Made by a program: the position numbers and the translations under genes. From NCBI RefSeq assembly GCF_014652215.1, contig NZ_BMYJ01000004.1, positions 1 to 64,000 of the forward strand: a stretch of DNA of 64,000 bases, written 5' to 3'. This DNA is from Neogemmobacter tilapiae. Lineage in GTDB: Bacteria; Pseudomonadota; Alphaproteobacteria; Rhodobacterales; Rhodobacteraceae. The notes beneath the pieces were generated by a model that was not told where the DNA came from, searched no databases, and worked only from the letters and a program-made list of their open reading frames with translations. Positions 27,875 through 50,669 of this stretch are shown one piece after another (position 1 is the first letter of the stretch; every line of letters begins with the position of its first letter).

Positions 27875-28948
27875 ATGGCCGATTTCGAAACGCAGATCCG
27901 GGAAAGCCAGGCGCAGGTCGCCGAGGCCCAGGCCAAGATCAGCGCCATCACCAGCCGCATTGAAGAGGCACGCAGCAAATTGGCGGCGGGTGAGGCGGCG
28001 ATTGACGTGGAAAACGCGACGCTGGACGATGTGCACAAACACACCGACCTGATGAACGCCAACATCGCCGAGCTGATCATGGGCTTGGATGATGTGACGG
28101 CGGGCTTTTCCAAGGATTTCGACGAAATGCGGTCGAAAACCACGATGGAAAGCCTGATCGGCTGGTTTTCCTCGGCCAAGTCGGAATCGATGCGGCAGGA
28201 ACGCCTGCGGGGGGCGTCGATTGACGACAAGCTGCAAGACCTGATCGCCAAGTCGGACGTGATCGTGAAACTGCTGCAAGGGCAGTTGGACATGCTGAAT
28301 GTGCAGAAGGCGAGTGTCGAGAAAAACCTGACCGGCACCCTGACCGAACGGGAAACGACGGTGGCGGCGCTGGAGGAATCCCGGGCGCAGATCGCGGCGA
28401 TGGATCCGAAGATCATCGAGTTGGAAAACAAGATCAGCGTTGAACAAGACGCGGGCAACCGGACCAAGCTGGAAAGCGAGTTGGCCGAACTGAACAAACA
28501 GCACAACGCGCTGGTGCAAGACGAACAGGTAAAACTGGCGAAAAGTCAGACGCTGGAGCGTTACATCGAAAAGGGCAAGACTTGGGTGGACAGCCTGCAA
28601 AACCAAGCGGCGACGCAGATGGTGCTGATCAACAAGCTGCAAACCGACACGAAGCAGCGGGTGGTTTTGTATGATGCTTTGACCGCGTCATTGAAGACGG
28701 CGCAGCAGCAGGACGTGGCGCACCGGATCAACGAGATCGGGGTGAAGACCGACCAAGAGGCGCAAGCGGCGATGGCGGCGATTGGGTCGGCGACGAACCA
28801 GCGGATGGCGGATATGCTGGAAGCGCATGAGGGCCATATGGTCTTTGCACGGGAAATTCTGGAGCAGAAGGCCAAGGCGGATGAGCGGTTCGCCCGGCGC
28901 TTTGCCACGATTGTCGAGAAGCATGACAAGAATGAGTATGGGGCGTGA
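27875..28948 (+). CDS. Long coiled-coil protein heading the AAA+ ATPase operon
   Basis: 357 residues from ATG 27875 with GGAGGG seven bases before it. No signal peptide or membrane segment. Nearly the whole chain is predicted helical with heptad patterns ('SQAQVAEAQAKISAITSRIEEA', 'ALEESRAQIAAMDPKI', 'KLESELAELNKQHNALV'). It vaguely resembles the coiled-coil partners of TelA/toxic-anion-resistance or PspA-like envelope systems, but I cannot assign a family. First of nine closely packed genes; its stop overlaps the GTG of the next. Confidence 0.7.
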   Translation: MADFETQIRESQAQVAEAQAKISAITSRIEEARSKLAAGEAAIDVENATLDDVHKHTDLMNANIAELIMGLDDVTAGFSKDFDEMRSKTTMESLIGWFSSAKSESMRQERLRGASIDDKLQDLIAKSDVIVKLLQGQLDMLNVQKASVEKNLTGTLTERETTVAALEESRAQIAAMDPKIIELENKISVEQDAGNRTKLESELAELNKQHNALVQDEQVKLAKSQTLERYIEKGKTWVDSLQNQAATQMVLINKLQTDTKQRVVLYDALTASLKTAQQQDVAHRINEIGVKTDQEAQAAMAAIGSATNQRMADMLEAHEGHMVFAREILEQKAKADERFARRFATIVEKHDKNEYGA

Positions 28949-29304
28949 CTTTTGCTAACCAGTCCCGGCGCACGCTCGTGTTGGGGCTGGTTGCCCTGGG
29001 GTTTGGCTTTGGCCTTTTGATGCTGCTACCATTCGTTGGCGATGGGATGGGCGCACATGTGTTGGCGTGGCTGTCTCTTCTAGGCATGTTCGCGGGCAGC
29101 CTATTGTTGTTCGTCGGCTTTGGTCGATGGATACATCGCCTGATGTGGCAGTCCGCGATACGTCATTCGACTTTGCAGATGTTCGGTCGAACCCATGCTG
29201 ACCGCATGCTCAACGGCGCGCTTTCTCCTTTCTGGAGATGGTGGCTTTGGATTACGCCAAGCGGTGAAGATAGGGACGCGTATGACATCGCAACCAACCC
29301 CTAA
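28945..29304 (+). CDS. Small membrane protein
   Basis: 119 residues starting at GTG 28945, which overlaps the previous stop (GTGA). Two transmembrane helices (about 9-30 and 36-60) precede a basic, Trp-rich cytoplasmic tail ('FWRWWLWITPSGEDRDAYD'). Codon use is less GC-biased than in neighbouring genes. Unknown function; it overlaps the next gene by 23 bases. Confidence 0.6.
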   Translation: MTFANQSRRTLVLGLVALGFGFGLLMLLPFVGDGMGAHVLAWLSLLGMFAGSLLLFVGFGRWIHRLMWQSAIRHSTLQMFGRTHADRMLNGALSPFWRWWLWITPSGEDRDAYDIATNP

Positions 29305-29701
29305 ACGCCGGCGCTTCCTGCTTTGGCTGGGCCTGACAATCGCGGTCATGGCCGTTCACTTTGCTGCTGCGATTTATTTCGTTACACAAAGCCACGCCCC
29401 AGAGACGGTATGGCTTGACGCGGGATTTATCTTTCGTGCAGCCGCACTCATTACAATTTCTACTCTGATTTGCCTATTGTTGGTGTGGTATGGTGCCCCC
29501 CTCTACGTCCTCATCCTTTGGAAATATTTGGCCGCGATAGAATACCTAACCGGACTTCCTTGGGGTAGCCGTATCGGGCACAGCATTTTGCGCAATGCCT
29601 CTTTCTCTCGCGCCAAGCCGGGCACGCCTTACGCTTGGGTTTATGGTTTGGCTCGGCGTGCCTATGGTGATCAGGTACCGCAGGACAAACCGAATGCTTG
29701 A
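29282..29701 (+). CDS. Small two-helix membrane protein
   Basis: 139 residues from ATG 29282 (AGGGA about eight bases before). Hydrophobic helices lie at about 12-34 and 52-78, followed by 'LYVLILWKYLAAIEYLTGL' and a basic tail. It has relaxed codon use like the previous gene, unlike the strongly GC3-rich neighbours. It ends just before a GC-palindromic repeat that separates it from the next gene. Function unknown. Confidence 0.6.
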   Translation: MTSQPTPKRRRFLLWLGLTIAVMAVHFAAAIYFVTQSHAPETVWLDAGFIFRAAALITISTLICLLLVWYGAPLYVLILWKYLAAIEYLTGLPWGSRIGHSILRNASFSRAKPGTPYAWVYGLARRAYGDQVPQDKPNA

Positions 29702-29707
29702 AACCTC

Positions 29708-29838
29708 ACCTCATCCCCCCCTCCCATCCTCCCCCACAAGGGGGGAGGGGCCGCCTCGCGCCCTTGATCCCCGTCACCGCCCCCGCCATCCGGGCGCTTC
29801 CCTCCCCCCCTGTGGGGGAGGGTCAGGGTGGGGGGGCG
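29708..29838. repeat. GC-palindromic intergenic repeat, copy A
   Basis: Two imperfect palindromes of the type CCTCCCCC-ACAA-GGGGGAGG, the first at about 29722-29750 and the second near 29800-29830, joined by a GC-rich spacer. The same composite design recurs at 39506-39625 and 50411-50528. This looks like a REP/BIME-like element. Confidence 0.8.
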
Positions 29839-29862
29839 GCAACCGCAGACAAAGGGGCCAAG

Positions 29863-30999
29863 ATGCCTGATACCCCCCTCACCGACGATCATGCCCAGCT
29901 GTACGACAACCTTGTCGCACGGCGCTATTTTGACAAGTTTGAACGCATCACCGGCCATCTGGCCCGTGTCGCCGCCGAGTTGGAGACCGAAGGCCGCCTG
30001 ACCCGCCTCGAATCCCGCGTTCTGGGGCATTACGTCACGCGGTTGGCGGCGACCTTTCGGGCCTTGTCCTACAAATACCTAATGACGGGGCGCACCGAGG
30101 GGCCGCTTCCCGGCAAGCTGACCTTTGACCGCCATGAAAGCGGTTTTCCCGTCGCTCAGGAACTTATGGTCATGGCGAACGATGCCCAGCAGGCCACCCG
30201 CCATCTGGCCGGGATGCCGTCGGAGACCGAGTTGAAGGACCGCATGATCCGCGCCATTGTCGGCGATCTGGAACTGCCCACCCGGTTGCAATTCACCCTG
30301 TCGCAGCGGCTTTATTACGAAACCCTCGCCATCCTGTCGCAGCCCGAAACCGACGCTTTGTTCTGGGCGCGGATTGACCCCGATGCACAATGGCTGGGCG
30401 ATGCGGGGGAGCGGCGGCAATTCCTTGTCCATTGGGCGGTCTATGACACGCAGGTCAACTTGCCCGTGGTTTATCTGATGGAGTTGGAGGATTCGGGTCA
30501 AACGCCTCTGCCCCGTTCCAGCCGCTGGGCGCAGGTGCAGGCCCATCTGATGGCGCAGTCGGTGATGGGGCTGAAGCTGCTGACCATTGCGCAAGGTTTC
30601 GACAAGGATTTCGACGACCTGCACCCAAAACGCCTCCGGCGGGTCATTCTGGGGCCGATGCATTCCAACAGCTTTACCCTGCAATCCGGGCCGTTGGCGG
30701 ATATCCTGCGTGACGCGCGGGGCAAGCCGGGCGAGGATTGGGCGCTGGTCTGGACGGTAGAAGAGTTGAACAGCGACCGCGAGGAAATGGTCAAGGATGG
30801 CTGGTTTTCATCCGTGCCCCGGCAGGTGTTCAAACTGCCGCCGGTGATGGGGGCCGACACGGGGGCGACGCGGGTGGAACAGATGATGATCCTGCCCGAA
30901 ATGATTTATCAGGTGCTGGCTGAACGCAACCCGCCGGGTTTGCGCGAATACCGCAAGTTCGTGGTGGGCGCGGGCGGGCGTCTGATGCCGATACGCTAG
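29863..30999 (+). CDS. Conserved protein of unknown function in the AAA+ operon
   Basis: 378 residues from ATG 29863. The frame is open further upstream, but that part is the palindromic repeat and is not protein-like. It is a soluble, mostly helical protein without signal peptide. Recognisable blocks are 'RRYFDKFERITGHLARVAAELE', 'FTLSQRLYYETLAIL', 'RSSRWAQVQAHLMAQSVMGLKLL' and 'ATRVEQMMILPEMIYQVLAERNPPGL'. I do not recognise the family. Position directly before the ATPase (9-bp gap) suggests an obligate partner. Confidence 0.7.
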   Translation: MPDTPLTDDHAQLYDNLVARRYFDKFERITGHLARVAAELETEGRLTRLESRVLGHYVTRLAATFRALSYKYLMTGRTEGPLPGKLTFDRHESGFPVAQELMVMANDAQQATRHLAGMPSETELKDRMIRAIVGDLELPTRLQFTLSQRLYYETLAILSQPETDALFWARIDPDAQWLGDAGERRQFLVHWAVYDTQVNLPVVYLMELEDSGQTPLPRSSRWAQVQAHLMAQSVMGLKLLTIAQGFDKDFDDLHPKRLRRVILGPMHSNSFTLQSGPLADILRDARGKPGEDWALVWTVEELNSDREEMVKDGWFSSVPRQVFKLPPVMGADTGATRVEQMMILPEMIYQVLAERNPPGLREYRKFVVGAGGRLMPIR

Positions 31000-31008
31000 G
31001 GGGATGGG

Positions 31009-32934
31009 ATGACGGTTCGCGACACGATGGAATTGAAGGAAGAGGCGGTTCGGGCGCAGTATGAGGCGGCTTTGAACCTGCTGACCGGGTTTGACCATGC
31101 GCCCCGGCTGGCGAAACCTATTGCCGAGGCCCCTGCGGCGGAACTGTCCCCCGGCATTGCGGCGCGGCCGCGGTTCCGGTCCACCGTGCCCGGCATGGCG
31201 ACCCGTTCGACGCAGCGGCCCGGCGGGGTGCGGATTGTGGATCGGATCGGCGCTTTGGGCGATGGGCTTTTGTCACCCACGCAATCCAACGTGCTGAACG
31301 CCCTGCGCCGCGCTTTGGCGATTGCCATGGCCATGGGCGAGACATTCGCCGGGGCCACGCCCTTGGCCGAGTTGAAGAAGGCCAATCTGGAAACCCGGCT
31401 GCCCGAGGCGCGGCGGGCGGAGTTTTCCGAACTGCTGGCGGCCGAGGCGCTGGTTTGCCTGCACGCCTTTGCCAACACCACCGCCTTTCTTTTGTCGCCG
31501 CATATGGGCAGTCAGACGGTGGAAATTGGCGCGGTGGAGGAGGTTCTGACCGACAATGCGCCGCTCGCCCTGCAAGGCGCGCTGTGGGAGCTGGATCAAG
31601 ACATCGGGGCCTTGGCGCAAGATGACGCGCGGCTGGTGGCGACGGTGGCGGCCTTTGCCGAGGCGCTGATGGACCGTGCGGCCCAGCGGGCGGAAAGCCT
31701 GCCGAAGGCGGCGGCTTACGCGGCGGCCAGCTGGCGGGTCGAGGCGGATGATCTGACGTTTTCCGGCTTTAAACCCGCACGATCGGCCAAGGGCACGGCC
31801 CTGACCATGACTTTCAAGAAACCCACCGAAGTCGTCGGCAACCATATCGCCAAATATCAGGCCCTGCGCCTGTCAAAAATGCTGATGGCCTATGACTTTG
31901 AACGCAAGCTGAACCCTTTTGCCGAGCTGGGGGGCTTCATCTTTACCTTCATGGGCGATGGCAAACCGGGGACGGGCAAGACCACGCTGATCCAGATGAT
32001 GGCGGGATTGCTGAACGATTACTGCAAGGTGGCGGGCTATGCCTTTCGCTATCAGAACTTTGGCATCGACCAGATTGACAGCTATCAGGGCAAATCGGGG
32101 CAGAATGCCAAGGCGTTCATCGACGCCATTCTTGACCCCGGCGTGATCGGCTTTGGCACTATCGACGACATCGACCAAGTCGCCGGCAAACGCGGCGACC
32201 GGCAGTCCAGCGCGGGGCAGCAAGAGGTGACGGCCGTCCTGATGGGGGCCTTTGCCGGGGCGAATACCGTGGTGCGGGGGAACTGCACCTTTGGGATGTT
32301 CTCGAACTATCCTGAGAATGTGGACGACGCCCTGCGGCAGCGGGCCGGGGCGCGTTTTCTGGTGGATGGGCCGCAAACGCGGGACGATTACATTGATATC
32401 CTGTCGCTTTTGCTGGGGAAGAACCATGCGATCCCCTTGGGCGACCACGATCTGTTTGCCGCGCAGGAAATCAAGAAAGCCGTCGCGGCGAGTTTTGAAG
32501 GGCATGGCGTGCCGCATGAGGATGGCTTGCGGAAGGTCTGGGATCAGGTGGTGGCCTCGGGGCCTTTGGATACGGTGGCCAAGATCGGGGCCTATCTGAA
32601 GGCGATCCAGCAGGCGGATGAGCGGTTCACGGGCCGGGCGGTGAAGAACATCACCGATGCGGTGAAGGTTCGGGCGATGGACTTTGAACTGCCGGATGAA
32701 TGGATGGAACAGCCGGACCTGTTCCTGTTCAAGGGCTATGATGAGAAACTGGCGATGATCCGGGGGCTGATGCAGCCCATCACGGTGGAGATGGTGATCC
32801 AGGAGGTGAACCGCTACGCGGATTCGGAATTCCGCTATGCGGATAAGAGTGATGAGGTGGCGATTCAGGGGATGGTCCGGGATATGGGGCGGATGGACGA
32901 GGCGCGGAGAAGGTATGCGGAGGGGAAGGGGTGA
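31009..32934 (+). CDS. AAA+ ATPase
   Basis: 641 residues. A helical N-terminal half (1-300) precedes one AAA+ module. Walker A is 'GDGKPGTGKTT' (about 316-326), the Walker B region reads 'VIGFGTIDDIDQV' (about 378-390, with two Asp instead of Asp-Glu), and sensor-1/arginine-finger region is 'MFSNYPENVDDALRQRAGARFLVDGP' (about 427-452), similar to FtsH/Vps4-like remodelling ATPases. A helical lid and C-terminal region follow. There is no membrane segment, so it probably acts in the cytoplasm on membrane partners encoded in the same run. Substrate unknown. Confidence 0.8.
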   Translation: MTVRDTMELKEEAVRAQYEAALNLLTGFDHAPRLAKPIAEAPAAELSPGIAARPRFRSTVPGMATRSTQRPGGVRIVDRIGALGDGLLSPTQSNVLNALRRALAIAMAMGETFAGATPLAELKKANLETRLPEARRAEFSELLAAEALVCLHAFANTTAFLLSPHMGSQTVEIGAVEEVLTDNAPLALQGALWELDQDIGALAQDDARLVATVAAFAEALMDRAAQRAESLPKAAAYAAASWRVEADDLTFSGFKPARSAKGTALTMTFKKPTEVVGNHIAKYQALRLSKMLMAYDFERKLNPFAELGGFIFTFMGDGKPGTGKTTLIQMMAGLLNDYCKVAGYAFRYQNFGIDQIDSYQGKSGQNAKAFIDAILDPGVIGFGTIDDIDQVAGKRGDRQSSAGQQEVTAVLMGAFAGANTVVRGNCTFGMFSNYPENVDDALRQRAGARFLVDGPQTRDDYIDILSLLLGKNHAIPLGDHDLFAAQEIKKAVAASFEGHGVPHEDGLRKVWDQVVASGPLDTVAKIGAYLKAIQQADERFTGRAVKNITDAVKVRAMDFELPDEWMEQPDLFLFKGYDEKLAMIRGLMQPITVEMVIQEVNRYADSEFRYADKSDEVAIQGMVRDMGRMDEARRRYAEGKG

Positions 32935-33002
32935 GATGAGCGTTTCACCAACTCACTCGCCAAAACAAAACATCACGATGTCAATCTGATCGAGTACAGC
33001 CG

Positions 33003-34502
33003 ATGACTAGACGAACCATCACGGATGAGGAAATCGGTCTGATCAAGGCAATGCTGCGCAGGGGCATGCGGAATCGAGACATTCAATTTTATTTCAACCG
33101 GCAAGATCGCCCAGTAAATTCTGGAAGGATCACTGGGATCAATGCCGGGGATTATGGCCCAGAGGTGCAAGCGGCGACAGAAGCCGCATTGGACACATTC
33201 CTTGCTGGCTTCGCGCCTGCCGAGGTGGGGGTGGTGATCGAAGCTGGCGCTCCGCGTGAACCGACGTTGGCTGAAAGGGCGTTCGCCCGCTTCGTGCAAC
33301 GTGATGGCGGCTGGTTTCTCGCAGACGGGGAGACCTCGGATCAAGAGTGCAAGGCGCAGTTCGATCCTCGCCGCATGGAGCCAGTCGTTCGTGCGATTGC
33401 TGCAATGGCGAACAATCGGGGCGGCTTTGTTTTCATTGGCGTCCAAGACGCAGATTGCCGTGTAACAGAGATGCCTGACACTGCCTTCCAAGATACCGAC
33501 ATCGTCCGCATCACAGACAAGGTGAAAAGCCTTCTGGCGCCTACGCCAGCCTTTTCCAAGGATGTCATTGAGGTCGGCGGTCAAGCAGTCGGCTTCATTC
33601 ATGTCGAGAAATATTCAACCCCGCCCGTGATCGTGTGCCGTGATGCAAACGGTCTTGAAGACGGAACGATCCTATTCCGCTATGCGGGGCAGTCTGGAAA
33701 GATCAAGTTCGGCGACTTGCTGGCCATGCTGCGCGAACGCGACAGGGCTGCAACGCAGACCTTGTTGGCAAGCGCAACCCGCCTCAGCGAAATTGGCGCG
33801 GATCGGGCATTGATCGTAGATACAGAAAGGGGCGAGTTGGACGCTGGAGCAAAACGTATAGTGATCGACCGCGCCTTGGCCAACCAGCTGGATTTCATTC
33901 GCGAAGGCGAGTTTCAAGAACGCGCCGGGGCACCAGCTTTGCGTCTTATCGGCGATGTTCACGCAGTAGACCCCGAGGGTCAGGTGGTCGAACGGATCGA
34001 GGGGCGGGCACTTGACGCCGACGCGGTTCTGTTTGCCTACCTCGGCCGTGAAGTTGTTCGCGAACCGCTCCAATACATCTGCTTGTCCGCAAAAGTACAA
34101 AGGCAATGGCTGCCCGTCTTTTACTTTGTCCGCCTTGCAGGCGGCGACATCGACGCTGCGATTGCGGCGCTAGATGCAACAAACGCGGTCTATCGCGTCT
34201 CAAAGCAAAACACGCTTGAACGATTAAGAGCACAGCGATCTGCATTTGAACGACCCGGCGGAGCTATCCTTGAAGTGGTGGCAGCCTTGCAGGCCGGGCA
34301 TTTTGACGAACTCCGTCAGGCGTTCAACGACGGGCAGATCGTACGTGGCATTCGTGGCCTGCCTGATGGGTTTGATCCGACCGAGCCGCTTTTCGATCTA
34401 ATTCGAGACATCTATCGGGATGCAGACGATAACGCGAATATCCGAAGTGGCGTTTTCAGTGCAGCCGCTCGCCTCGATGAATTGGAATTCGTAACCCCAT
34501 GA
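33003..34502 (+). CDS. AlbA_2/Schlafen-type protein with N-terminal HTH
   Basis: 499 residues. Residues 1-50 look like a small helix-turn-helix ('EEIGLIKAMLRRGMRNRDIQFYF', 'RITGINAGDYG'). About 115-200 matches AlbA_2 ('QECKAQFDPRR', 'VRAIAAMANNRGGFVFIGVQD'), a nucleic-acid-binding fold shared with Schlafen proteins. The rest is unassigned. Its codon use is less biased than that of its neighbours, and 68 bp separate it from the ATPase gene while it overlaps the next gene by ATGA. It may be a recent insertion within an older operon, perhaps a defence-related cargo gene (inference). Confidence 0.7.
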   Translation: MTRRTITDEEIGLIKAMLRRGMRNRDIQFYFNRQDRPVNSGRITGINAGDYGPEVQAATEAALDTFLAGFAPAEVGVVIEAGAPREPTLAERAFARFVQRDGGWFLADGETSDQECKAQFDPRRMEPVVRAIAAMANNRGGFVFIGVQDADCRVTEMPDTAFQDTDIVRITDKVKSLLAPTPAFSKDVIEVGGQAVGFIHVEKYSTPPVIVCRDANGLEDGTILFRYAGQSGKIKFGDLLAMLRERDRAATQTLLASATRLSEIGADRALIVDTERGELDAGAKRIVIDRALANQLDFIREGEFQERAGAPALRLIGDVHAVDPEGQVVERIEGRALDADAVLFAYLGREVVREPLQYICLSAKVQRQWLPVFYFVRLAGGDIDAAIAALDATNAVYRVSKQNTLERLRAQRSAFERPGGAILEVVAALQAGHFDELRQAFNDGQIVRGIRGLPDGFDPTEPLFDLIRDIYRDADDNANIRSGVFSAAARLDELEFVTP

Positions 34503-35848
34503 AACGCCTCATCACCGCCGGTCTCATGTTCGGCAACCTTGTCGAAATCACCTCGCCCGCCCTCATTGAACGCTACAACCGCGCGCTCAGGCATTTGACG
34601 GGCAAGACGACCCAGCTTCAGGACTTCCACATCGACATCTCCGGCTTTTCCCCCGAAATCGGCGAAGAGCTGAACGACGACCGCTACCTGAACCCCAACG
34701 GCGCCAACCGGCAGTTCATTCTGCTGACCACGGCGCAAAAGGCGGCGCCTTTGCTCAACAGCCAGTTTTCCACCAGCCGGGGCATTCTGCGCCAGTTCAT
34801 CGACCAGAACGAGGCGCAGTTGTTCGCCCTGACCGCCCGCGATGCCGTGGCGGGGGAGTTGCAGGGATCGGTCTTTGGCGTGGACAAGCCGGCGCAGCTT
34901 TTCGACATTCGCAAGATCGTGGTGCAGGCCGACACGATTGGGGGCCATGTGCGCGATGCGGAAAAGCTGGCGGCGCTGATCGAACGGTTTCGGAAAGAGC
35001 CGGATGGCTGGCGGGATGATCTGCTGATGGCGGAAATGATCACGCTGGCGAAGGTGACGGGGGACATTACCCGCGTGCCGATCAGTCTGCCGGAAATGGC
35101 GTTTGAGCAGGGTAATTTCTGGACCAGCCACTTTGGTGGCCTGTATATTTTCCGCAACGTGGCGGTGCCGGGGGTGATCTGCAACCGTCCGGAATCGGAA
35201 CTGGGGCCGATGCCGATTTCGCCGGTGATGGATTTTGCCCAGCGGAATGAGATTGCGGCTTGGCTGGAGCGGAATGAGCTGGTCGAGCCGATCGTGAACG
35301 CGCGGGGCATGGATGCGGCGGCGGTGCTGCGGCAAAAGATGGATTTCATCGTGGTCGAGGCGGCAGAGGCCTTGGCGCTGGATCTGGGCGGGGCGACGCG
35401 GCAGGATCTGCGCAAGATTGCGACGCGGCTGGGGCCTGCGCTGCCGGATGAGTTCAAGGGCTTGGCGGCGCTGCTGGCTTGGGTGGAGCGGGCGGGGGAA
35501 TGGCCGATGATTTCCAGCGAACATCCGGCCTATTTCTATACGCTGCGGTCGCGGGCACACCCGGACCGGGATTTGGTGAATATGCTGCTGGCGGAGCTGG
35601 CACCCTTGGACGTGCGGCAGTTGTTCATCACGCATAAGCAACGGTTCTATGAAGCCTATGCCGGATGGTCGGACCGGAAGCGGCAATTCGTGGTGGATTT
35701 TCTGGCGCGAGAGTATCAGGTGGACAAGCAGGGCGCGCGGGCGGCCTTGTTTGGGCCAGAGCCGGGGATGGATGCGAATGACCGCCCGCCGCCGAAACCG
35801 GCGGTCGATCTGGGGCGGCTGGTGGGGCCATGGGGGGCGATCCGATGA
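34499..35848 (+). CDS. Conserved protein of unknown function (DUF6638-like?)
   Basis: 449 residues starting at ATG 34499, coupled to the AlbA_2 gene. Soluble with no obvious catalytic motif. Blocks: 'MFGNLVEITSPALIERYNRALRHLTG', 'DFHIDISGFSPEIGEEL', 'ANRQFILLTTAQKAAPLLNSQFSTSR', 'ALFGPEPGMDANDRPP'. I believe related proteins are annotated as DUF6638 in Rhodobacteraceae, but cannot verify it. Membership of the same run as the ATPase is its main functional hint. Confidence 0.65.
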   Translation: MKRLITAGLMFGNLVEITSPALIERYNRALRHLTGKTTQLQDFHIDISGFSPEIGEELNDDRYLNPNGANRQFILLTTAQKAAPLLNSQFSTSRGILRQFIDQNEAQLFALTARDAVAGELQGSVFGVDKPAQLFDIRKIVVQADTIGGHVRDAEKLAALIERFRKEPDGWRDDLLMAEMITLAKVTGDITRVPISLPEMAFEQGNFWTSHFGGLYIFRNVAVPGVICNRPESELGPMPISPVMDFAQRNEIAAWLERNELVEPIVNARGMDAAAVLRQKMDFIVVEAAEALALDLGGATRQDLRKIATRLGPALPDEFKGLAALLAWVERAGEWPMISSEHPAYFYTLRSRAHPDRDLVNMLLAELAPLDVRQLFITHKQRFYEAYAGWSDRKRQFVVDFLAREYQVDKQGARAALFGPEPGMDANDRPPPKPAVDLGRLVGPWGAIR

Positions 35849-36123
35849 TGGCATTCTTTCGGCTGGGGCTGCTGTATCTGGTCTTTGCGACGGTGATGTA
35901 TTTCCTGCTGACCGTCTATTTCCGGTCCTTGCGGCGCGAGGCCTTGGAAAAGGAATGGGACGGCGACCCGGCACGCGAAGGGGCAAGTGCGGCGGAACGG
36001 GAGGCGTTCATCGAGGCGGGCGTGGCGGAATGGAAGCACAGTTTCCGGCGGCGGCTGATTTGGCTGGTTTATGTGATCCCGGTCCTTATCATCGGCGTTG
36101 TGATCTATTATGTGAACTGGTGA
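35845..36123 (+). CDS. Small membrane protein with two helices
   Basis: 92 residues from ATG 35845, which overlaps the previous stop. Transmembrane helices lie near 5-25 and 70-90, with a charged middle rich in Glu and Arg. The C-terminus ends 'VIYYVNW'. Function unknown; part of the AAA+ run. Confidence 0.7.
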   Translation: MMAFFRLGLLYLVFATVMYFLLTVYFRSLRREALEKEWDGDPAREGASAAEREAFIEAGVAEWKHSFRRRLIWLVYVIPVLIIGVVIYYVNW

Positions 36124-36139
36124 AACATCGGGGGCGACA

Positions 36140-36805
36140 ATGGCCAGATACTTCCGCATTCTGAAATGGGTGATCCTGTCCCTGATGGCGCTGACCTTGG
36201 TGGCGTTTTTCCATTATGTGCTGCCGCAGCATGATGTGGTGCGGATCACCGATACCAGCACGCAGCGCATTGATATGGGCGAAAACTCGCTGTTCTGGGC
36301 GGCGGCGGATTTGGGGACGGATGCGACGCAGACAACGCGGGATGTGAAGTTCATTGCGACGATCCAGCCAAACGGTAAGCCGATGGTTTACCGGAACGAG
36401 GATACGGGCTGGATCTGGCCGCCCTATTTCAAATTCGACAGCTATAATGTGCAGGCCGAAGCGTCGGATCTGAAATCGACGGCGGAAGCGCCGAAATGGG
36501 TGATGATCACGCATTACGGCTGGCGGAACGAATGGTTCACGATTTTCCCGAATGCGGTGTCAGTCAAGGCCGTTGAGGGGCCGGATGTGACGGTGTTTCC
36601 TTGGGTGAACATCGTGATCCTGTCCGGGCTTTTGGCGATCCTGTTCATGCTGTGGCGGATGTGGGCGCAGTTCAAGGAACGCACGATTGACCCGACGATT
36701 GACGCGGTGGATGCCCGCGCCGATGCGATGGCGGACAGCGCAAGGGGCTTTGGCGGGCGGATTTCGGCCTGGCTGGGCACTTGGCGGGCGAAGCCGCGCA
36801 AGTAG
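36140..36805 (+). CDS. DUF1523 family membrane protein
   Basis: 221 residues. An N-terminal transmembrane anchor (about 8-28) is followed by a periplasmic domain with the DUF1523 signature ('FHYVLPQHDVVRITDTSTQR', 'MVYRNEDTGWIWPPYFKFDS', 'THYGWRNEWFTIFPNAVSV'). A second transmembrane helix (about 154-176) precedes a cytoplasmic tail. The family is typical of alphaproteobacteria and uncharacterised. It is the last gene of the AAA+ run. Confidence 0.85.
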   Translation: MARYFRILKWVILSLMALTLVAFFHYVLPQHDVVRITDTSTQRIDMGENSLFWAAADLGTDATQTTRDVKFIATIQPNGKPMVYRNEDTGWIWPPYFKFDSYNVQAEASDLKSTAEAPKWVMITHYGWRNEWFTIFPNAVSVKAVEGPDVTVFPWVNIVILSGLLAILFMLWRMWAQFKERTIDPTIDAVDARADAMADSARGFGGRISAWLGTWRAKPRK

Positions 36806-36920: not shown

Positions 36921-38402
36921 ATGGTCAGACTGACAACCGATGTGCGTGGGAAGCTGGCGGATGTTTGGGTGGGGTTGGATGCGGGCGAAACCGTGACCAT
37001 CACCCTGAACGCCAAGGGGCAGTTGCAGAACAGTGTTGATGGGCTGGTGGCCGGGAACCTGCGGCAGCTTTATGTCTCGGTCCGGGGCGAAGGGGCGGCC
37101 CTTGTGACCGGGGGGCGCTATGCGGACAATCTGACTGGTGGTGTCGGCGATGACGTTTTGCGCGGCGGCGATGGGAATGACGTGCTCTATGGCGGTTATG
37201 CCAGCTTTTATTGGGACAATGGCCAACAACGCTATGTCCGACCCAATGCGGGGGCCGACAAGATTTTTGGCGGGGCGGGGGCCGATTTTCTGACCGGCGC
37301 AGCGGCGGCCACGCTTTATGGTGGGGCGGGCGACGACCTGATGGATTGTGTCGCCGCCGATGGCCCGAAGGGCGCTTTGTATGGTGGCAGGGGCAATGAT
37401 GTTCTTTCCGCCAGCTTTGGCGATGTGGCCACGGCGTTTCATTTCGAGGGCGGGCAGGGAACCGATGCGCTGCTGCTTGATTTTCGCGGATCGGCGGCTG
37501 CGGGCTATCCGCAGGGGCCGCAGGTCGTGGATTTTGCGGCGGCGCGGGGCGGAGTTCTGCGGATCGGCGGTTTGGAGGCATCGGGCTTTGAACGGCTTAT
37601 CTTTGCCGGAAGCGATCAGGCCGATCAGGTGAAAGGCGGGGCGCTGGGCGATATTCTGCGCGGCGAAGAAGGCGCGGATCACTTGCTGGGCGGCGGCGGG
37701 AACGATGTTTTCCTATGGAAGCATCAATCCTTTTCCGACAGTGATGGCGCCGATTATCTGGATGGGCAGGCAGGGCTGGATCAGCTTCGGATCGACTGGC
37801 GGTCGGCGGACGGGCTTTTGGTGACCCTGACCGCAGAGGGCGATGTGCAGTCCAGCATCCCGGGCTTCACCGCCAAAGGGATCGAGGCGCTGCGCATTCA
37901 GGGCGATGTTGGCCATGACACGATGATGGGCGCCCGCGGGAATGACACGTTCTGGGGCTCGCTGGGGGATGATCTGCTATCGGGTGGCGGGGGGGACGAT
38001 CATCTGATCGTCGGGCTAGGCCATGACACCGTGATGGGGGGGCGCGGCGCGGATCTGTTCCTGTTCAACGGGCAAGAGACGACGACCATCAGTGACTTCG
38101 TCTCGGGGCAGGACAAGATCGTGCTGAACCCGATCTGGGGGGGCAAAGCGGGTGCTTTGGCGGCGGGGACATTTCGCTTGGGCAAGCTGGCGCAAGATGC
38201 GGATGACCGGCTGATCTATGACCGGGCGCGTGGGCAATTGTGGCTTGATGCGGATGGCAATCGCGCCGGGCAGGCGGTCTTGCTGGCCCAGTTAAAGGAA
38301 GGGGCGGCGCTGACGGGGGCGGATATCCGATTGCTGACGCATTGGGACGGTCTATATCCGCATATCCCCGATGCGTTGAAACCCATCTGGTCGATTTTCT
38401 GA
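36921..38402 (+). CDS. RTX calcium-binding secreted protein
   Basis: 493 residues from ATG 36921 with GGGGGCGGG directly before it. RTX nonapeptides occur in several blocks: about 70-95 ('GGVGDDVLRGGDGNDVLYGG'), 110-140, 235-260 and 330-380 ('GSLGDDLLSGGGGDDHL'). The C-terminal 95 residues ('ISDFVSGQDKIVLNP', 'DADDRLIYDRARGQLWLDADG') match type I secretion substrates. No catalytic domain is recognised. It differs from the other two RTX proteins in lacking an enzymatic or adhesin module. Confidence 0.8.
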   Translation: MVRLTTDVRGKLADVWVGLDAGETVTITLNAKGQLQNSVDGLVAGNLRQLYVSVRGEGAALVTGGRYADNLTGGVGDDVLRGGDGNDVLYGGYASFYWDNGQQRYVRPNAGADKIFGGAGADFLTGAAAATLYGGAGDDLMDCVAADGPKGALYGGRGNDVLSASFGDVATAFHFEGGQGTDALLLDFRGSAAAGYPQGPQVVDFAAARGGVLRIGGLEASGFERLIFAGSDQADQVKGGALGDILRGEEGADHLLGGGGNDVFLWKHQSFSDSDGADYLDGQAGLDQLRIDWRSADGLLVTLTAEGDVQSSIPGFTAKGIEALRIQGDVGHDTMMGARGNDTFWGSLGDDLLSGGGGDDHLIVGLGHDTVMGGRGADLFLFNGQETTTISDFVSGQDKIVLNPIWGGKAGALAAGTFRLGKLAQDADDRLIYDRARGQLWLDADGNRAGQAVLLAQLKEGAALTGADIRLLTHWDGLYPHIPDALKPIWSIF

Positions 38403-39505: not shown

Positions 39506-39625
39506 CCCCCCTCCCCATCCCTCCCCCACGGGGGGGGGGGGGAGGGGGGCACTTCGTTCCCGGCGAAGTGAGACGGAAATTCGGGGCCTCCCCTCCCCTC
39601 GTGGGAGGGGCCGGGGGAGGGGGCC
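39506..39625. repeat. GC-palindromic intergenic repeat, copy B
   Basis: Composite of CCCTCCCCCAC...GGGGG palindromes and the imperfect half CCCTCCCCTC-GTG-GGAGGGG, as in copies A and C. It separates deoC from the ALDH gene. An internal ACTTCG..CGAAGT hairpin is also present. Confidence 0.75.
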
Positions 39626-50343: not shown

Positions 50344-50669
50344 GCGAAACCCCTGTTTTCCCGCCCTATAACACCCCCCGCTTTCTCGGACCAGAGACCG
50401 CTGAACAGCGCCCCCCACCCCTAACCCCTCCCCACAAGGGGGAGGGGAACGTGCCCACTGTCACAGGCACCCCCTTATGATCAACGCGCCCCCCCTCCCC
50501 CTTGTGGGGAGGGGACGGGGGTGGGGGCTTTGCCAAAGGTCAAGGCCATAGGGGTAAAAATGGCAAAAATGTGGCAGTTTCTCAATTTCATATATATTTC
50601 AATTAGATAATCAGAATTTCACGCGTGAAAGGGGCCAGTCTGGACGCAGAAAAGCCCCCTAGCCCAGCC
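50344..50669. other. Intergenic region with palindromic repeat and A+T-rich stretch
   Basis: 326 bp without a gene. It holds palindromic repeat copy C (50411-50528) and an unusually A+T-rich stretch (about 50570-50622), which ends near the stop of gshB. The lysA promoter must lie in the first part. Nothing else is recognised. Confidence 0.6.
50411..50528. repeat. GC-palindromic intergenic repeat, copy C
   Basis: CCCCTCCCC-ACAA-GGGGGAGGGG at about 50425-50447 and, inverted, CCCCTCCCCC-TTGTGG-GGAGGGG at 50492-50514, joined by about 45 bp. Same family as copies at 29708 and 39506. Confidence 0.85.

Follow-up and report, generated by a model that had tools for sequence, protein, structure and literature searches.

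A conserved AAA+ ATPase and coiled-coil protein gene cluster of Rhodobacteraceae as a candidate protein-remodelling system

Associations between PspA and AAA+ ATPases have been described in bacteria, with PspA/Snf7 (ESCRT-III) proteins linked to Vps4-like or double-AAA+ ATPases (PMC11237479). The locus analysed here lies in a 64,000-nt stretch of Neogemmobacter tilapiae DNA (the window) and resembles these systems in that a helical/coiled-coil partner and membrane proteins are encoded close to a classical AAA+ ATPase. It differs from them in that profile comparison does not link the coiled-coil protein g1 to PspA, the ATPase g5 has no particular likeness to Vps4 and contains a single AAA domain after a helical N-domain, and g4 and the DUF6638 protein have no counterpart there. 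The described associations are therefore regarded as the nearest analogy and not as a demonstrated relative.

All nine open reading frames were found on the + strand, and the starts of g4 and g8 were refined from the sequence. The features are as follows.

27875..28948, + strand: g1, coiled-coil protein, 357 aa, no TM segment, no Cys; core component
28945..29304, + strand: g2, 119 aa, 2 predicted TMs; accessory, slot 1 (between g1 and g4)
29282..29701, + strand: g3, small membrane protein, 139 aa, 3 hydrophobic segments; accessory
29715..29834, no strand: C-rich inverted repeat with 35-nt arms, between g3 and g4
29860..30999, + strand: g4, soluble protein, 379 aa, matching no known family; core component
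31009..32934, + strand: g5, classical AAA+ ATPase, 641 aa; core component
33003..34502, + strand: g6, SLFN/AlbA_2-domain protein, 499 aa; accessory, slot 3 (between the ATPase and DUF6638)
34499..35848, + strand: g7, DUF6638 protein, 449 aa (PF20343, E=5.6e-210); core component
35845..36123, + strand: g8, 92 aa, 2 predicted TMs; membrane pair with DUF1523
36140..36805, + strand: g9, DUF1523 protein (PF07509, E=2e-71); membrane partner

The preliminary description of a tightly packed, overlapping nine-gene cluster with four small membrane proteins was borne out. The overlaps amount to 4 nt (g1/g2), 23 nt (g2/g3), 4 nt (g6/g7) and 4 nt (g7/g8), the exceptions to the packing being a 158-nt g3-g4 gap, filled by the inverted repeat, and a 68-nt g5-g6 gap. 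TM segments were predicted in g2, g3, g8 and g9 only, with none in the other five proteins; those of g9 (residues ~10-28 and 152-170) leave about 120 residues in between. Pfam matches above the cut-off were obtained for g5 (AAA, 2.6e-11), g6 (SLFN_AlbA_2, 1.4e-12), g7 (DUF6638) and g9 (DUF1523), and neither Pfam nor NCBIfam gave a family above cut-off for g1-g4 or g8. Promoter and terminator scans returned background level only. No paper on DUF6638 was found in the open-access literature, the matches there to DUF1523 and DUF2333 had titles on other subjects only, and nothing relevant to the operon features was retrieved. With no matching description in this literature or in PADLOC, the statement that the locus corresponds to no described system still holds.

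The four-gene core and its membrane partners

The genomes of 84,980 species were scanned, and of at least 433 relatives the 80 best (Rhodobacteraceae loci) were retrieved. Gene order and strand showed no violation at these 80 loci, and nearly all relatives whose locus was complete had g1-g4-AAA-DUF6638-g8-DUF1523 in one colinear run, with differing flanking genes. The clustering is far beyond chance. Contig ends account for all genes absent from the loci except at L120 and at L062, where DUF6638 is missing from the remaining 4.7 kb. Of 61 related genomes, each from a different genus, 20 contained the ATPase, and g1, g4 and DUF6638 were present in exactly the same 20. Likewise, the ATPase and a strong g1 match occurred in the same 26 of 398 Pseudomonadota genomes. 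The four genes also diverge in step (Mantel r 0.77-0.84, to which shared ancestry contributes).

The strict core thus consists of g1, g4, g5 and g7, inherited together as a near-obligate set, and the conserved block comprises six of the nine genes. The block from g1 to DUF6638 appears to enter or leave genomes as a whole, at a conserved site. The preliminary description had proposed one operon of nine genes; the order was indeed kept elsewhere for six of them, but the locus is not a nine-gene unit because g2, g3 and g6 are accessory. Its grouping of a coiled-coil protein with an AAA+ ATPase and membrane proteins was supported by the order kept at the 80 best-matching loci.

In Rhodobacteraceae g8 and DUF1523 follow the core. 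DUF1523 was found in 31 of the 61 genomes, and 10 of the 11 regions having DUF1523 and no core were fetched; a g8-like gene still precedes DUF1523 in six of these. Three of the core-less DUF1523 genes adjoin deoC and an aldehyde dehydrogenase gene, the downstream neighbours in the window. Since g8-DUF1523 survives without the core, it constitutes a separable membrane pair, and it evolves less in step with the core (r 0.51-0.57) than the core genes do with one another.

The core block is kept together in the same order in many marine, soil and Vibrio bacteria. It occurs in Rhizobiaceae, among them Sinorhizobium (S. meliloti Ak57) and Shinella, where the order is tdk-g1-g4-AAA-(DUF559 or other insert)-DUF6638-DUF2333; loci L184-L187 were assigned to this family by the same cho-tdk and formate-tetrahydrofolate-ligase context. 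In two alphaproteobacterial families, therefore, DUF6638 is followed by a membrane protein: g8-DUF1523 in Rhodobacteraceae and DUF2333 in Rhizobiaceae. Other members of family f160 have tdk-g1-like-DUF2333 only, with a diverged g1 and no ATPase. Such diverged g1-like genes, which follow thymidine kinase and are accompanied by DUF2333 but not by the ATPase, g4 or DUF6638, were seen at L188:7713-8786, L189:7982-9181, L190:8422-9495 and L195:8144-9079, and possibly represent a reduced form of the system.

In Vibrio parahaemolyticus and V. vulnificus g1-g4-AAA-DUF6638 are contiguous on 0.9-Mb replicons, and no DUF1523, DUF2333 or g8 was found adjacent to these loci; the minimal unit is therefore four genes. 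On two such non-mobilizable replicons of about 0.9 Mb (L222, L223) the core lies beside mfd and opposite-strand membrane-protein genes annotated as DUF3592. At loci with panB and panC alongside, ATPase divergence correlated with that of panB (r 0.82) and panC (0.89), the panB-panC value being 0.88, which is consistent with mostly vertical descent in this flanked subset. Phage records and viral contigs yielded no relative.

The ATPase and the soluble partners

The ATPase g5 is composed of an N-terminal helical domain (residues ~76-240) and an AAA core starting at ~260. The Walker A motif (GDGxPGTGKT), the pore-loop Tyr359, the sensor Asn433 and Arg443/445/449, the arginine-finger candidates in the SRH (second region of homology), were invariant in 110 of 110 sequences. 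The Walker B pair was Asp386-Asp387 in all 110, and also in Vibrio at 38% identity. Alignment with Cdc48 puts this pair on the Walker B DE, hence the catalytic Glu is an Asp in every member. The usual DExD Glu is thus absent (Asp387), and family membership does not require it: g5 is placed among classical AAA+ proteins because of the remaining motifs, the fold and the Pfam match.

In the predicted structure of g5 the helical domain was confident and the AAA core weaker (low pLDDT). The best matches in a structure comparison were AAA+ ATPases (Z 8.3), over residues 259-435 of this low-pLDDT core; the comparison confirmed the AAA core only, and Foldseek gave no match below 0.001. Fold similarity to Cdc48, Rpt, FtsH and TRIP13 was about equal (Z 7-8.3), and among PDB relatives Cdc48, proteasome Rpt, FtsH, TRIP13 and spastin scored about equally. 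The ATPase profile (A1) reached no PDB sequence at 1e-5, and the single AAA domain led to classical AAA ATPases. No MIT domain was detected by Pfam, and Vps4 scored lower than Cdc48 and i-AAA. These near-equal matches identify g5 as a classical AAA+ protein and single out neither Vps4 nor FtsH. Of the FtsH/Vps4-like sensor region proposed for it earlier, the classical AAA+ assignment with an SRH stands, and the likeness itself proved generic.

Like Cdc48/p97, Rpt and FtsH, g5 has the Walker A motif, the pore-loop aromatic residue, the SRH-type sensor, the arginine-finger region and the fold (Z ~8); unlike them, it has Asp in place of the Walker B Glu, another N-terminal helical domain and unique partners, and no protease domain was matched. 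A weak PADLOC match to TRIP13 (4.8e-4) and the fold (Z 8.0) recall TRIP13/Pch2, but family searches found no HORMA-like or CD-NTase partner in the locus. Apart from the Walker B Asp, the motifs of g5 are all those of an AAA+ motor that binds nucleotide, forms a ring and uses pore loops. Replacement of the Glu by Asp suggests that hydrolysis is slow or switch-like; a natural Asp at this position could also mean weak hydrolysis or none.

The g1 model was all-helical, with five helices, four of them of 64-79 residues, and a mean pLDDT of 58; in Foldseek this model matched generic coiled coils. A weak match of the g1 profile to a PspA-like protein encoded beside YjfI/YjfK-like genes in a gammaproteobacterium was treated as coiled-coil background. 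TelA (PF05816) was also considered. Like TelA, g1 is a cytosolic helical protein of similar length, and a resemblance between the motifs GWESFVG and SWWERLFG was suggestive; unlike TelA, it has no profile match to this family (probability 0.6-2), and hhalign gave nothing usable even with diverged members. The genome encodes PspA and a canonical TelA elsewhere, separate from g1. No match to g4 was found in Pfam, NCBIfam, PADLOC or the PDB, and neither g4 nor DUF6638 showed a recognisable fold or activity.

A possible membrane-tethered machine or soluble activase

The best reading of the locus is an AAA+ remodelling machine, undescribed in the open-access literature, that would act on or with the coiled-coil protein. 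The proposal of a single ATP-driven protein-remodelling machine encoded here, with a tether to the inner membrane in alphaproteobacteria, is put forward tentatively, with slightly less than an even chance of being right; it relies on sequence comparison and on g1 and g5 structural models of low to moderate confidence. In such a machine the pore loops of a g5 ring would pull on or rearrange an assembly of g1 coiled coils, or else a substrate that g1 presents, with g4 and DUF6638 as putative adaptors or regulators. The complex would be recruited to the inner membrane by a periplasmic-domain protein, g8-DUF1523 in Rhodobacteraceae and DUF2333 in Rhizobiaceae, and if so would probably work there at the cytoplasmic face. 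As the Vibrio core has no immediately adjacent membrane protein, membrane action may not be general. A role in envelope stress, as suggested in the preliminary description, is possible. An unlikely narrower version would make the locus a class of coiled-coil/AAA+ machine analogous to ESCRT-III-Vps4 and of independent origin, whose Asp-Walker-B ring would act at the inner membrane to remodel a cytoplasmic polymer of coiled coils.

A rival explanation is a soluble AAA+ activase or assembly chaperone of the MoxR or Rubisco-activase type that remodels a specific cytosolic enzyme or complex, the membrane genes being neighbours or loosely linked regulators. The lack of TM segments in all four core proteins, the Vibrio core without adjacent membrane partners, and the persistence of g8-DUF1523 without the core together with its looser co-divergence (r 0.51-0.57 vs 0.77-0.84) would all suit this explanation. 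It is nevertheless rated rather unlikely: no client enzyme gene is consistently linked to the core, DUF6638 is followed by a membrane protein in two alphaproteobacterial families, and g1-like proteins pair with DUF2333 where the ATPase is missing.

The analysis delimits a four-gene AAA+ system common to Rhodobacteraceae, Vibrio and Rhizobiaceae, the last including the genetically tractable Sinorhizobium meliloti, and places two unnamed families and the Pfam unknowns DUF6638 and DUF1523 in a shared context. The system is directly testable owing to its strict co-inheritance and its invariant Walker B Asp, and would be relevant to the way in which AAA+ motors act with bacterial coiled-coil assemblies.

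Variable slots and the remaining alternatives

Slots 1 and 3 were empty at some loci and had several genes at others; the remaining junctions were usually short. For the 80 best-matching of at least 433 relatives, slot 1 (g1-g4) measured 3-796 nt, and in the window 912 nt; slot 3 (AAA-DUF6638) measured 0-2386 nt. The slots contained mostly small membrane proteins, with nuclease-type domains in about 8 of 65 slot proteins; the nuclease-type genes found in slot 3 at some loci were DUF559, Mrr, DEDD exonuclease and AlbA_2, and a Fic gene directly precedes the ATPase in L185. The g2 protein has no Pfam family and belongs to a loose BLAST-linked family of small two-TM slot-1 proteins (9 members among 81 loci). 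At the 80 best loci g3 had no relative, and g6 recurred only once, in Tabrizicola thermarum (79% identity). The three genes are treated as lineage-specific accessories and the slot genes as passengers or modulators. A slot-3 family of 254-266 aa was seen at L117:9931-10731, L084:9920-10684, L122:9914-10678 and L064:2412-3182; a scan of a single member gave no match in Pfam.

It is mainly these slots that keep alive the idea of an anti-phage or inter-genetic-conflict system with exchangeable effectors, to which the nuclease-type and Fic genes and the patchy presence (20/61 genomes) would be congenial. We consider it quite improbable, since PADLOC gave weak AAA or coiled-coil matches and none specific for any core protein, nuclease-type domains are confined to about 8 of 65 slot proteins, the system was not seen in phage records or viral contigs, ATPase divergence keeps pace with that of panB and panC, and a slot is empty at some loci. 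The notion of slot 3 as a defence hotspot was considered and downgraded.

A genuine bacterial ESCRT-like system, with g1 as a diverged PspA/Snf7-type filament and g5 as a Vps4-like disassembly ATPase, would account for the all-helical g1 model and for the company of a classical AAA+ ATPase and membrane proteins, and has a precedent in the described PspA-AAA+ linkages. This identity for g1 had no support from profile comparison: hhalign gave it a probability of 1.7, near that of the reversed control, and neither PspA nor Snf7 was among the Pfam matches listed for 23 members. As the genome has a separate PspA and the ATPase resembles Cdc48, Rpt and FtsH at least as much as Vps4, such a system is very unlikely here. 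That the genes form no functional unit and are neighbours held together by chance or local transcription, as the lone ATPase gene at L120 might suggest, is extremely improbable, being contradicted by the identical profiles in 61 genomes and the order unbroken across families and classes.

The L120 gene (L120:8001-9917) lies on a Rhodobacteraceae-like MAG contig; the surrounding 18 kb are otherwise intact, and no other core gene occurs at less than 8 kb from it. In the window, an ORF for an RTX-like/haemolysin-type repeat protein follows DUF1523 (36921-38402), with similarity at 2 of the 80 best loci. The C-rich inverted repeat occurs there in three copies (29715-29834, 39507-39623 and 50412-50527) with arms of 34-36 nt, in or near intergenic regions.
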